A stretch of 64,000 nucleotides of DNA, taken from the NCBI RefSeq assembly GCF_006539345.1, contig NZ_BJMV01000010.1:62001-126000 (forward strand), written 5' to 3'. How positions within the stretch are numbered: the stretch's first letter is position 1; each line of letters begins with the position of its first letter. This document shows, piece by piece, positions 51,595 through 62,537 of this stretch. The notes below the pieces were generated by a model. It ran no database searches, had not been told where the DNA came from, and saw only the letters and a program-made list of their open reading frames with translations. A program made the translations under genes and the position numbers. This DNA is from Acetobacter peroxydans. GTDB taxonomy: Bacteria; Pseudomonadota; Alphaproteobacteria; Acetobacterales; Acetobacteraceae.

Positions 51595-52167
51595 ATGACC
51601 AGACCGGCCGATCCCACGCCAACACCCCAGCCTTCCCTACAGCCGCGCAACGGTCGGGCGGCTCTGCTTGGCGTGGCGTTCTGTGTTATGGTGGCGAGCT
51701 GGGCGGGTTTTCGCGCCATGGCGCCCGCCGGACAGAGCGATACACCCAAAGACGACGCCGCACAGGATGTGCAGACTGGCTCGGCCCTGCCGCTGCGTAT
51801 GGTCGCCCCCGAGCAGGCGGCGCAGGCGCTCGCGGCTTCGGGCTATTCGCTCAAGGAACAGGCGGATATTCTGGCGGCCGTGAAACGGCGTGACCTGCGC
51901 CTGCTGGCCATGCCCATTTACGATGCGGCAGGCACGGGCGGTACGGTCAGCCTGCTCTGCGGGCCGTGGCACCGCACGGTGGCGCTGGCCGCCACCCCCA
52001 CCACCGTCATCCTGCCCATTGCCATGGCAGGCAGCGTCGATATTGTAGGACTTTCATCCCAGGGGGCGGCAGGCATCAACAGTGGCGTCATCACCGCGTT
52101 TGGCCCGCAGGTTCTTCCGCCTCTCGTCACTGGGCAACATCTGCATGTTTCGGTTATCGCGCAATGA
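51595..52167 (+). CDS. Membrane-anchored protein of unknown function, first gene of AAA+ operon
   Basis: 190 residues from ATG 51595; GGAGG lies 14 nt upstream, which is long, and GTG 51574 is an alternative. A Pro-rich cytoplasmic start precedes one hydrophobic helix (about residues 22-40: AALLGVAFCVMVASWAG). A predicted periplasmic part follows, with an acidic linker, a helical segment (APEQAAQALAASGYSLKEQADILAAVKRRD) and beta-rich sequence to VSVIAQ. No family is recognised. Its TGA overlaps the ATPase ATG (ATGA), so the two are translated together. Confidence 0.72.
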   Translation: MTRPADPTPTPQPSLQPRNGRAALLGVAFCVMVASWAGFRAMAPAGQSDTPKDDAAQDVQTGSALPLRMVAPEQAAQALAASGYSLKEQADILAAVKRRDLRLLAMPIYDAAGTGGTVSLLCGPWHRTVALAATPTTVILPIAMAGSVDIVGLSSQGAAGINSGVITAFGPQVLPPLVTGQHLHVSVIAQ

Positions 52168-53441
52168 AAGACCTTATGCCCACGCTGAACCGGTTCATGC
52201 CGCTGATGATGGTCATCTTTCTGGTGCTGGCCAGCATCCAGATCGCCATTTCGCTGCACCTGTCGCTGCATGGGCTTATGCACGTTCTGCAATGGGGTGC
52301 ATCCATCTGGCCGGTGCTGGCCGCGACCGGGCTGGCGCTCACCCTGGCCGGCCTTCTGTTTGAGACACGCGCTGAACAAATCGCCCGCAAGGGCCTTCTT
52401 CGTCGACGGGGCTTTATCATGGACGTTCTTGCCAGACTGACCAACCGCGCCGCCCTCGAAGAGATGATGGCGCGCGAACAGCGTGAAACCACGATCGACG
52501 CCGAAGAACTGGCCGCCAACCTGCGCGCGCGCGTGATCGGGCAGGATCAGGTTTGCGAAGACATGGCAACCCAGTTGCGCCGCCGTCTGGCGTTGCAGGT
52601 GCGCGGCAAGCCTGTTGGCATTTTTCTGCTGGCCGGGCCGCCGGGCACTGGCAAGACCTATCTGGCCAAGCAGCTTGCCCGCCAGCTTGACCGTCCGTTG
52701 CTGCACTTTGACATGACCCAGATGAGCAGCCCCCACGCCGCAACGCAGCTTTTTGGCTCGCCCAAGGGCTATGTCGGCTCCGACACCTACGGCAAGCTGA
52801 CCGGCGGCCTGCAGGAAAAACCCGACGCGGTGGTGCTGCTCGATGAAATCGAAAAAGCCCACCCGGATGTGTTCAAGAAATTCCTGACCGCCTGGAACGA
52901 CGGCCACGTGACCGAGGCCTCCACCGGGCAGCAGGTTTCCACCGTGCGGGCTATTTTTATCCTGACCTCCAACATCGCCACGGAAGCACTGGCGGATATT
53001 GCGAACCGCCTGCAGAACGACCCCGATCGGATGCGCGCCGAGTCGGTCGAAGCACTGCGTCAGGCTGGCTTCGCGCCCGAGGTGCTGAACCGCCTTGACC
53101 GTATTTTTGTCTTCCGCCCTCTGCAGGGGCTCGATATTGCCCGCGTCGCGGCGCTGGAAATCGAAAACATGATCGAAAGCTACGGCCTGAAGGTCGAGAC
53201 AGGCGGGATCGACGCGGCCCTGCTGATGGATATCATGCGCCGCATGAGCCGGATGGGCGATGGCGCCTCCGCGCGTGATCTGGCCCGCGGCGTGGAAGAC
53301 ATGATCAGCGAATCCCTGATTATCGCCCGCCAGCAGGGCGCGAGTATGGTGCGTCTCGTGAAGGAGGAAGACGGCACGGTTGCAGCCAAGGCAGCAGGCA
53401 GCAGCCGGTCTGACTCGTTCTCACCCCGTCTTTCGCCCTGA
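52164..53441 (+). CDS. Membrane-anchored single-ring Clp/Hsp100-like AAA+ ATPase
   Basis: 425 residues from ATG 52164. Two hydrophobic helices (about residues 10-30 and 42-65) are followed by a linker and one AAA+ module of the ClpA/ClpB second-domain type. The module has VIGQDQV, Walker A GPPGTGKT, pore loop GYVG, Walker B VVLLDEIEKAHPDVF, sensor 1 LTSN, Arg finger FAPEVLNRLDRIF and a sensor-2-like GDGASARDLARGV. The Clp N-domain, the first AAA+ ring and the ClpB middle domain are absent. No ClpP-docking IGL/IGF loop is seen. It probably unfolds or extracts proteins at the inner membrane. Both flanking genes encode predicted exported or membrane proteins. Confidence 0.85.
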   Translation: MKDLMPTLNRFMPLMMVIFLVLASIQIAISLHLSLHGLMHVLQWGASIWPVLAATGLALTLAGLLFETRAEQIARKGLLRRRGFIMDVLARLTNRAALEEMMAREQRETTIDAEELAANLRARVIGQDQVCEDMATQLRRRLALQVRGKPVGIFLLAGPPGTGKTYLAKQLARQLDRPLLHFDMTQMSSPHAATQLFGSPKGYVGSDTYGKLTGGLQEKPDAVVLLDEIEKAHPDVFKKFLTAWNDGHVTEASTGQQVSTVRAIFILTSNIATEALADIANRLQNDPDRMRAESVEALRQAGFAPEVLNRLDRIFVFRPLQGLDIARVAALEIENMIESYGLKVETGGIDAALLMDIMRRMSRMGDGASARDLARGVEDMISESLIIARQQGASMVRLVKEEDGTVAAKAAGSSRSDSFSPRLSP

Positions 53442-53524
53442 TGTCAGGCAGCACCCCGCTGTCTGGCCTGCTGCCCATGCCTGTTCCGCCCACGCGCCCG
53501 CGCGCCTGTCTCTAGGTTTACCGG

Positions 53525-54487
53525 ATGTCCGCTTTTACCCGCTTGTGGCGCCGTGCGCCGTTATGGCGCGCCACGCTGATGGCCACCGGCGTTACCACCG
53601 TTCTGAGCGTGCTGGTGCCCGCCCCCTGGCTTGCCAGCAGCCTGCCCGCCTATACCGGGCTGACATCGCGCATCCAGCACGCGCTGGGCATGGGCGGGCA
53701 AGGCGGCACGGGTACCGATGACGCGCTGCACCCGCAGGAAGACCACCGTACCATCTCCGTCCCTCCGGTGGACGCCCAGATGGAGGGGCGGGTGTCATTT
53801 ATCGGCAAGGACATTCCCCTGCCCGCAGGCAAGTGGCACCCGCTGCTGACCTATCAGGATGATCTTTCCCACGGCGAGATCATGACGGCCATCTACGTGC
53901 GTACGAATGATGGAATCGTTACCGGCCTGCTGCTTCTACAGGGCACATCGCAATCCCTGCCCATAGCCGACACCATGCCAATTCAGGGGCAGTGCACCAG
54001 CCCCTTTGCCTTCATGACCCGCTCCCAGCCGGTGGATGGCAACCATTCGGAATGCTGGCTGACGTCTCCCATACGGATCGTCAACGGGTTCTTCCTGACA
54101 TCCGATCCGGCATTGCAGCAACTGGTCAGCTCGCCCTTTTTCATTCCTGCGGCTGTGGAGCGGCTGAATATCCAGGGCTATACGCTGCCCAGCGTGCTGG
54201 TGGACGCGGCCTGGAACCGGATTGAAAAACGCGAGCCGGATTCCCGTGCCGATTTTCTGAGCGTGCATCTGCTGACCAGCCCCGCCCCGCCCGGCAGCAC
54301 CCGCGCGCCCGGCGCACCAGAAAACTGGACACGAACCGGGATGCGGGATTCAGCCACCGTTTCAGACTTTGTCCAGCGTACTAATGCGTGGATACAGGGC
54401 TGGGCGCCCTATCTGCTTCAGGCTTTTGAGGGCCAGCAGGCAACGCCGCCCGCTTCAGCCGCGGAAGACCCTGGCTTCCGGGGTTAG
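53525..54487 (+). CDS. Predicted periplasmic protein of unknown function, third gene of AAA+ operon
   Basis: 320 residues. An N-terminal hydrophobic segment (about residues 16-40: ATLMATGVTTVLSVLVPAPW) acts as signal anchor. A Gly/Asp linker follows, then a beta-rich domain with GRVSFIGKDIPLPAGKWHPLL, DGIVTGLLLLQG, two Cys (in GQCTSPF and SECWLTSP) about 30 residues apart that could form a disulfide, and PSVLVDAAWNRIEKREPDSRADFLSVHLL. The layout brings to mind small exported proteins, but no family is recognised. It begins 83 nt after the ATPase stop. Confidence 0.7.
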   Translation: MSAFTRLWRRAPLWRATLMATGVTTVLSVLVPAPWLASSLPAYTGLTSRIQHALGMGGQGGTGTDDALHPQEDHRTISVPPVDAQMEGRVSFIGKDIPLPAGKWHPLLTYQDDLSHGEIMTAIYVRTNDGIVTGLLLLQGTSQSLPIADTMPIQGQCTSPFAFMTRSQPVDGNHSECWLTSPIRIVNGFFLTSDPALQQLVSSPFFIPAAVERLNIQGYTLPSVLVDAAWNRIEKREPDSRADFLSVHLLTSPAPPGSTRAPGAPENWTRTGMRDSATVSDFVQRTNAWIQGWAPYLLQAFEGQQATPPASAAEDPGFRG

Positions 54488-61872: not shown

Positions 61873-62537
61873 CATCGCTGTTCTGGCACATTGTCCTGCG
61901 CGACCTGCGGCTGGCCCTGCGGCATGGTGCGGACACGCTGGGCGCGGTGCTGTTCTTTATCGTCACGGCCACGCTGTTCCCGCTGTCACTCGGGCCTTCG
62001 CCCGAACTGCTGCGCCGCATGGCGCCCGGCATTATCTGGGTGTGCGCCCTGCTGGCCTCGCTGCTGCCGCTTGACCGGCTGTTCGGCGCGGAGCTGGAAG
62101 ATGGCTCACTAGATCAGCTCATGCTGCTGGGGCTGCCGCCCTCGCTTGTGGCGCTGGCCAAAATGACCGCGCACTGGCTGACAACCGGCCTGCCGCTCCT
62201 GCTGGCCGCCGGGCCTCTGGCCATCATGCTGGGCCTGCCTGGCACGGCGCTGCCGGTTCTGCTGGGAGGGCTGCTGCTGGGCTCGCTCGTGCTGTCGCTT
62301 ATCGGGGGCATGGGAGCCTCTATCGTGCTCGGCGCGCGCCGGGGTGGGGTTCTGCTGCCCCTGCTGACCCTGCCGCTGATTACTCCGGCCCTGATCTTTG
62401 GTGCCGCCGCCATCGACGCAGCGGCAACCGGCCTGCCGTGGAAGCCCGATCTGGAGCTGCTGGGCGCATTCGTGGCGGCGGCCCTGCCTCTTTGCCCGCT
62501 GGCGGCAGGCGCGGGATTACGCGCGGCCACTGAATAA
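61869..62537 (+). CDS. ccmB: Haem exporter permease CcmB
   Basis: 222 residues from ATG 61869, overlapping the ccmA stop by 4 nt. Six hydrophobic helices are present. FWHIVLRDLRLALRHGADTLGAVLFFIV at the start and the FGAELEDGSLDQLMLLGLPPSLVALAKMTAHWL stretch are CcmB hallmarks. It pairs with CcmA at the inner membrane in c-type cytochrome assembly, important for respiratory dehydrogenases. A terminator follows. Confidence 0.92.
   Translation: MTSLFWHIVLRDLRLALRHGADTLGAVLFFIVTATLFPLSLGPSPELLRRMAPGIIWVCALLASLLPLDRLFGAELEDGSLDQLMLLGLPPSLVALAKMTAHWLTTGLPLLLAAGPLAIMLGLPGTALPVLLGGLLLGSLVLSLIGGMGASIVLGARRGGVLLPLLTLPLITPALIFGAAAIDAAATGLPWKPDLELLGAFVAAALPLCPLAAGAGLRAATE

Follow-up and report, generated by a model that had tools for sequence, protein, structure and literature searches.

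Hsp100 proteins are known mainly as soluble machines with one or two rings. Torsins possess a single Clp-D2-related ring tied to the membrane, and their ATPase activity requires an arginine finger from a membrane cofactor. FtsH is a membrane-anchored hexameric AAA+ protein, and mitochondrial CLPB/Skd3 has a single ring. Two reports describe CLPB/Skd3 as an Hsp100 disaggregase of the intermembrane space with an ankyrin domain (PMC9934407, PMC7343390). The present study concerns a three-gene operon of Acetobacter peroxydans, which lies in a stretch of 64,000 nucleotides (the window; positions 62,001 to 126,000 of contig NZ_BJMV01000010.1) and encodes a membrane-anchored Clp/Hsp100-type ATPase (gene 2, P0002), preceded by gene 1 (protein 1, P0001) and followed by gene 3 (protein 3, P0003). 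It reveals that the ATPase has lost catalytic residues together with gene 1 in several lineages of the Acetobacteraceae, and suggests that the ring acts on protein 1. A description of such an operon was not found in the literature searched, including the Gluconobacter knockout papers PMC8602642 and PMC12041372 and the paper PMC10727944, in a search that covered main text and had most subscription papers outside it. The three-gene unit around an inner-membrane Clp-type motor is apparently undescribed so far.

The ATPase is of the Hsp100/Clp D2 type. Like the D2 ring of ClpB and ClpA, its module carries D2-type Walker A and B motifs, a tyrosine pore loop, an arginine finger and sensor 2, and it matches Pfam AAA_2 at E 4.3e-38. 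In NCBIfam it is closest to ClpB (174.6 bits, only over profile positions 533-786, against a whole-protein cut-off of 1232 bits) and to ClpA (169.7 bits), in each case by the D2 part and far under the whole-protein cut-off. In contrast to ClpB and ClpA, the protein (425 amino acids in all) has neither N-domain nor first (D1) ring, leaves no room for the middle domain, and adds two N-terminal membrane helices. An earlier note on this DNA, made from the sequence alone, had described two membrane helices before one ClpB-D2-like module, lacking the Clp N-domain, the first ring and a ClpP loop, and this description holds: two hydrophobic peaks and all the motifs are present, the profile matches stay within D2 parts, and P0002 contains no tripeptide of the form [ILVMP]G[FLY] that could belong to a ClpP loop. 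A ClpA/ClpX-type protease partner is likewise not indicated, the IGF/IGL-type loop being absent and the ClpA model scoring far below its cut-off. No protease domain was matched in proteins 1-3 except the AAA+ parts of Clp and Lon models (for the ATPase, among the best 25 of 39 and the best 25 of 64 families).

Comparison with the other candidates separates the ATPase from each of them. The Pfam Torsin profile gives 23.2 bits against a cut-off of 27; unlike Torsins, the ring has its own arginine finger in the sequence and would face the cytoplasm. This orientation is suggested by the charge bias around the anchor, where the mean K+R over 110 proteins is 0.71 in residues 33-46 vs 9.21 in residues 69-100. 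FtsH shares the membrane anchor and the hexameric state that we infer for the ATPase. FtsH and the other membrane AAA+ proteases differ in that the module here is Clp-type, and no protease family, fused metalloprotease or partner metalloprotease was found among the matches listed. CLPB/Skd3 is matched by the ATPase sequence; the membrane helices and the two operon partners set the present system apart. The AAA+ module also resembles that of the bacterial defence ATPases DolB (Dodola) and PDC-M37B (375-518 model positions; PADLOC E 1.2e-22 and 1.7e-25), but these matches are weaker than that of ClpB. PADLOC recognised neither P0001 nor P0003, the two neighbours covered, and gave no DolA partner there. 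The MoxR/VWA group is a near miss (bpMoxR, 26.7 vs 27 bits), and the Clp-type match is far stronger.

Results

The family scan covered 397 Acetobacteraceae genomes, in which the ATPase was called at E <= 1e-50. It was present in 106 genomes, 99 of which also carry protein 1. Walker A, Walker B, the aromatic pore loop and the arginine finger are intact in all 99 ATPases of the gene-1 genomes, the pore loop reading GYVG or near it (GFVG, GYIG, GYMG); SARD is found in 98 of them, and the sequence of the remaining one (G612) ends before it. Protein 1 is missing from seven ATPase genomes (G070, G116, G136, G443, G486, G619 and G493), and in G493 the locus is cut by the contig end and the ATPase motifs are intact. 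Seven ATPases are degenerate (G061, G070, G116, G136, G443, G486 and G619); that of G061 falls below the ATPase threshold and was reached via protein 3. GYVG is gone and the canonical Walker B DE is absent in all seven, with D alone left in G070, E alone in G116 and G136, and ED in G443 and G486. In these proteins hydrolysis and threading look lost, as judged from the motifs. Gene 1 was not found by profile in any of the seven loci, and a genome-wide search gave no protein 1 match in six of the genomes (G061 is not named in that listing). Gene 3 is kept in all seven.

The combination of the two losses arose independently at least three times. In a quick NusA+RimP tree of 41 rows, gene-1 loss and degeneracy never occur apart, and a single label stood for both; the degenerate state requires four changes, at least three of them forced by starred branches. 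G116 pairs with the intact G029 (100), G619 with the intact G032/G648 (99), and G443/G486 with the intact G101 (86, branch not starred); three of three independent pairs agree on joint loss. Between G443 and G486, the degenerate ATPase has a dN/dS of 0.057, falling to 0.045 within the AAA+ module, and protein 3 one of 0.058. Thus, a catalytically impaired ring is maintained by selection in at least one lineage. For G136/G061 the synonymous sites are saturated, and the N-terminal part alone gives a dN/dS of 0.162.

Two other causes of this pattern were considered and rejected. An overlooked, diverged gene 1 does not fit the degenerate loci, where the gap between rimP and the ATPase is about 200-300 bases, too small for a gene of 190 amino acids. 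Assembly error as the general cause is contradicted by open frames of about 400-470 amino acids in seven genomes from five genus groups and by the purifying selection in G443/G486. In G136, a frameshift leaves nusA (L140:6148-7694) in two frames that overlap, which may stem from a sequencing error. Single-base errors thus occur in that genome, but its ATPase frame is open.

The three genes constitute a real, conserved operon. The relatives are 63-96% identical in many genera, with two further ones at 39 and 42%, and its coding signal is therefore far above chance. As the earlier note had stated, genes 1 and 2 are coupled by ATGA, in which the stop of gene 1 and the start of gene 2 share bases 52164-52167 (a 4-base overlap); the same overlap is seen in 76 of 107 loci. 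A search of genome contigs gave 126 relatives, and the 80 loci kept are all named Acetobacteraceae, from genera including Acetobacter, Komagataeibacter, Gluconacetobacter, Gluconobacter, Asaia and Neokomagataea. These best 80 were joined with 30 loci from the family genomes, including the locus of the window itself, into a set of 110 loci in which species may overlap. As best matches they are a biased sample, and the 397-genome scan supplies the fair count. Its 99 ATPases comprise 30 read with this set, seven others (G029, G450, G463, G488, G536, G592 and G648) and 62 that were fetched in addition. In all 110 loci a protein 3 match adjoins the ATPase, though that of L031 is broken. Protein 1 is likewise matched in all 110, 107 by tblastn and three (L026, L029, L032) by profile only. 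All five motifs are intact in every one of the 110 ATPases. Frequent occurrence of the ATPase without its neighbours, which the earlier note had named as a possible refutation, is thus not what the family presents, with gene 1 in 99 of 106 genomes and a gene 3 match in all loci read. G126 (L144:3490-5792) has gene 3 in several broken frames and an ATPase frame without the first helix, although its gene 1 and catalytic motifs are undamaged.

Outside the family the ATPase is rare. Among the 289 genomes of a class sample, E <= 1e-50 is reached only by the one that contains the window. At E <= 1e-25, 270 of the 289 have matches, and those listed are mostly long frames, as for ordinary Clp proteins, the short-frame exceptions among them being G247 (388 amino acids) and G378 (308 amino acids). 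Within the family scan, two further genomes, G475 and G524, have a weak protein-1-like match only, and the ATPase is absent. Protein 3 has weak matches in 11 class genomes besides its own (E 1.4e-13 to 0.0096), and the ATPase and protein 1 profiles found nothing in the short loci (L117-L128) of these outside-family relatives. Relatives of protein 3 with a PLPxGxW-like motif and without this ATPase occur at L117, L119, L122, L123 and L152. They belong to other Alphaproteobacteria and to G011 of the family; L117 and L152 each contain copies side by side. A viral or phage origin was rejected: the listed matches (best 15 of 146 records, best 80 loci) are Clp-type and leave the anchor uncovered. 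A search of viral contigs with P0005 found nothing.

Both partners appear to expose short N-terminal tails to the cytoplasm and large domains to the periplasm, as judged by charge bias. By hydropathy and the structure model, protein 1 consists of a cytoplasmic proline-rich tail (about residues 1-23), a membrane helix (24-42) and a beta-rich periplasmic domain (about 59-190). Its AlphaFold2 model has pLDDT 77.7 and pTM 0.62; the region of tail and helix is low, and residues 71-190, mainly strands, reach pLDDT 82-96 in 10-residue blocks. The tail is a median 23 amino acids long with 19.6% proline, vs 8.9% after the helix (93 of 107 proteins measured). Protein 3 has a basic N-terminal motif, then one membrane helix and a periplasmic alpha/beta domain with the motif PLPxGxW (AlphaFold2 pLDDT 86.1, pTM 0.73). 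The basic motif, LWxRAPxWR, is predicted by charge to be cytoplasmic and is proposed as a docking site for the ATPase. The earlier note had called protein 3 exported, with two cysteines; the cysteines stand, Cys 157 and Cys 177 being invariant in alignments A3 and A5, and anchored is the safer word, since the hydrophobic segment follows a conserved basic motif.

No Pfam family matched protein 1 or 3 at E <= 1, and PADLOC and PHROGs gave nothing for either at E <= 0.01, in line with the earlier note, which had called both proteins unknown; homology of the partners to a described complex, another possible refutation, was thus not met with in these databases. NCBIfam gave protein 1 two matches, at E 0.064 and 0.078, and a Pfam search of protein 3 with 39 relatives gave scattered matches only (best E 0.013). 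On these profile searches, neither partner belongs to a named family. Both drift faster than the ATPase, with a mean column identity of 38% for protein 1 and 39% for protein 3 vs 76%. Homologous proteins (E 1e-23) with a C-terminal protein-1-like domain occur on Rhodovulum plasmid pRGUI01 (L172:8635-9828) and at L161:4813-6219. They represent a second type of locus, and at L161 the next gene encodes a different AAA+ ATPase.

The anchored ATPases form a lineage of their own. Nine of them, including both plasmid forms, make one clade with support 100/100 in a tree rooted in no degenerate copies and compared with four references: ClpB and ClpA of the same genome, a TssH and a ClpC/E-type protein from Pontibacillus. 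On this tree the anchored single-ring ATPases are a monophyletic group apart from the four Clp references; the Methylorubrum row is a long branch, and its exact placement is unsure. The plasmid forms were recognised on two Methylobacteriaceae plasmids among 72,556 plasmid records, from the best 30 of the 1,941 records that P0002 matched; others may sit among the ordinary Clp matches. The relative on Microvirga pMVF16-3 is 46.7% identical over 92%, and a recognisable remnant of the LWxRAPxWR motif lies downstream of it. A more distant pair lies on Methylorubrum sp. B1-46 plasmid pB146-2 (L171:8764-10346), where a gene resembling gene 1 (A2, E 1.2e-18) and that of an anchored ATPase (A1, E 1.1e-46) overlap, near mobQ and a gene annotated as a conjugative DNA transfer protein.

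The coordinates of the operon and its motifs are collected in Table 1. The genes around it lie on the other strand; upstream are what we take to be rimP and nusA, and downstream presumably a LysR-type gene and a transporter pair. Of the 80 named loci, 79 have the same pair upstream on the opposite strand, and the remaining one (L093) ends at a contig edge; the pair is missing in deeper members of the family (L146-L150, L158-L160, L168 and L169).

Table 1. Genes and motifs of the operon, in positions of the window
Feature	Positions	Strand	Basis or remark
Gene 1 (P0001, protein 1, 190 aa)	51595..52167	+	ORF
Gene 2 (P0002, 425 aa), membrane-anchored single-ring Clp/Hsp100 D2-like AAA+ ATPase	52164..53441	+	ORF, profiles, alignment
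First membrane helix of ATPase, residues 11-29	52194..52250	+	Hydropathy 2.46; kept in alignment A1
Second membrane helix of ATPase, residues 48-66	52305..52361	+	Hydropathy 1.94; strongly basic segment after
Walker A GPPGTGKT, residues 158-165	52635..52658	+	Invariant in 21/21 alignment rows
Pore loop 1 GYVG, residues 202-205	52767..52778	+	Alignment, motif reading
Walker B VVLLDE, residues 223-228 (overlapping LLDEIEKAH)	52830..52847	+	Alignment, motif reading
Arginine finger N309-R310 in LNRLDRIF	53088..53093	+	Alignment, motif reading
Sensor-2 arginine R371 in SARD	53274..53276	+	Alignment, motif reading
Gene 3 (P0003, protein 3, 320 aa)	53525..54487	+	ORF, alignments A3 and A5, AlphaFold2 model
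Motif LWxRAPxWR of protein 3, residues 7-15	53543..53569	+	L7, W8, A11, W14, R15 invariant in A3

Discussion

The present analysis suggests that the ring acts on protein 1 and that the ATPase, together with protein 3, also serves as a scaffold, a reading to which we give a probability of roughly 0.42. Under this reading the three proteins would form one inner-membrane complex through direct contacts. Six copies of the ATPase would make a cytoplasmic Clp-D2-type ring, each subunit anchored by two helices, and the pore would grip the unstructured proline-rich tail of protein 1. Since the ring is placed in the cytoplasm and protein 1 offers only this short tail there, the tail is most likely the part on which the ring acts. 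Pulling on it, driven by ATP and presumably directed towards the cytoplasm, would remove or re-set protein 1 and thereby alter the action of protein 3 and of the periplasmic side of the complex. Protein 1 would thus be a dedicated substrate of the motor and might serve as a brake, say, or pass force on. The ATPase would in addition hold protein 3 as a scaffold, for which hydrolysis is not needed. Since the catalytic residues are lost with gene 1 while the protein persists, part of its job seems to proceed without ATP hydrolysis. In other words, the simplest account is that hydrolysis is needed only where protein 1 is present, and that together with protein 3 the ATPase chain also plays a structural part. 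The bolder version, in which a new membrane-anchored Hsp100 subfamily pulls a brake off protein 3 from the cytoplasmic side and lineages without the brake have repeatedly turned the ring into an impaired but selected scaffold, appears rather doubtful.

The earlier note had proposed an inner-membrane unfoldase with periplasmic partners. The anchored single-ring Hsp100-type ATPase, the periplasmic partners and the conserved operon agree with this, and the intact pore loop points to unfolding or extraction by the ring. What that proposal missed is the part of the job that seems to be independent of ATP hydrolysis; it overlooked the joint loss because other genomes are needed to see the catalytic residues disappear with gene 1.

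Several observations weigh against our reading. All seven degenerate copies retain the Walker A lysine (within GKT in G619), and the arginine-finger and sensor-2 arginines, lost in G061, G070, G136 and G619, are kept in G116, G443 and G486; nucleotide binding, and in some copies perhaps weak activity, may thus remain. The loss events are few, and a sign test is unable to reach 0.05 with them. In G450 (L159:4000-5400) and G592 (L164:4300-5900), gene 1 is present but a shift interrupts the ATPase frame, the conserved letters resuming in another frame, which may reflect assembly error or recent decay. The plasmid forms depart from the pattern. In Microvirga the motifs of the ATPase (P0008) are intact, gene 1 is not recognisable, and gene 3 is truncated (82-aa frame, E 1.9e-7). 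The Methylorubrum pair has a gene-1-like partner but no GYVG and no gene 3 match. Furthermore, either loss may have come first, and the proline-rich tail may be an ordinary linker.

Protein 1 might instead be an activator or adaptor of a ring that acts on other membrane or cytoplasmic proteins, with catalytic drift following the loss of the activator. Torsins, which are switched on by the cofactors LAP1 and LULL1, offer a parallel, and the joint loss of gene 1 and the catalytic residues fits this alternative equally well. The frequent overlap of genes 1 and 2 speaks for it too, as does the recurrence of the pair without a gene 3 match on the Methylorubrum plasmid, which an obligate activator would lead one to expect. 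On the other hand, the cytoplasmic tail of protein 1 is short and variable and offers an adaptor little surface, and protein 1 drifts fast for a partner of so conserved an ATPase. A general unfoldase deprived of its activator should also vanish rather than persist under purifying selection, as it does in one genome pair, and we regard the activator role as unlikely.

A general quality-control unfoldase that extracts damaged proteins from the inner membrane, with proteins 1 and 3 as periplasmic sensors, is quite unlikely. FtsH and Msp1 are models for such a role, here without a peptidase; the intact pore loop, the anchor and the many acetic acid bacteria that carry the ATPase would suit it, but a general function accords poorly with restriction to one bacterial family and two plasmids, or with seven genomes that keep the protein after losing its catalytic residues. 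Finally, the operon might descend from a system of plasmids, for conjugation or for something else, that has been domesticated and survives in part, with a role that is now structural and lineage-specific. The Methylobacteriaceae plasmid relatives, one of them adjoining mobQ and the annotated conjugative transfer gene, gave rise to this thought, which the constancy of the rimP/nusA context in the named loci and the recognition of anchored relatives on so few plasmids, within the matches considered, render very unlikely.

Under the preferred reading, in which the ring acts on protein 1, the loss pattern in several small-genome lineages suggests what the motor works on. The repeated joint loss would give a testable assignment of motor to substrate, and it suggests that the scaffold role is separable. 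If the bolder version is true, evolution has repeatedly separated the two functions of an AAA+ machine in the Acetobacteraceae. A single ring fixed in the membrane and coupled to two periplasmic partners, as many acetic acid bacteria keep it, would be a new route by which the force of ATP hydrolysis passes from the cytoplasm to the envelope.

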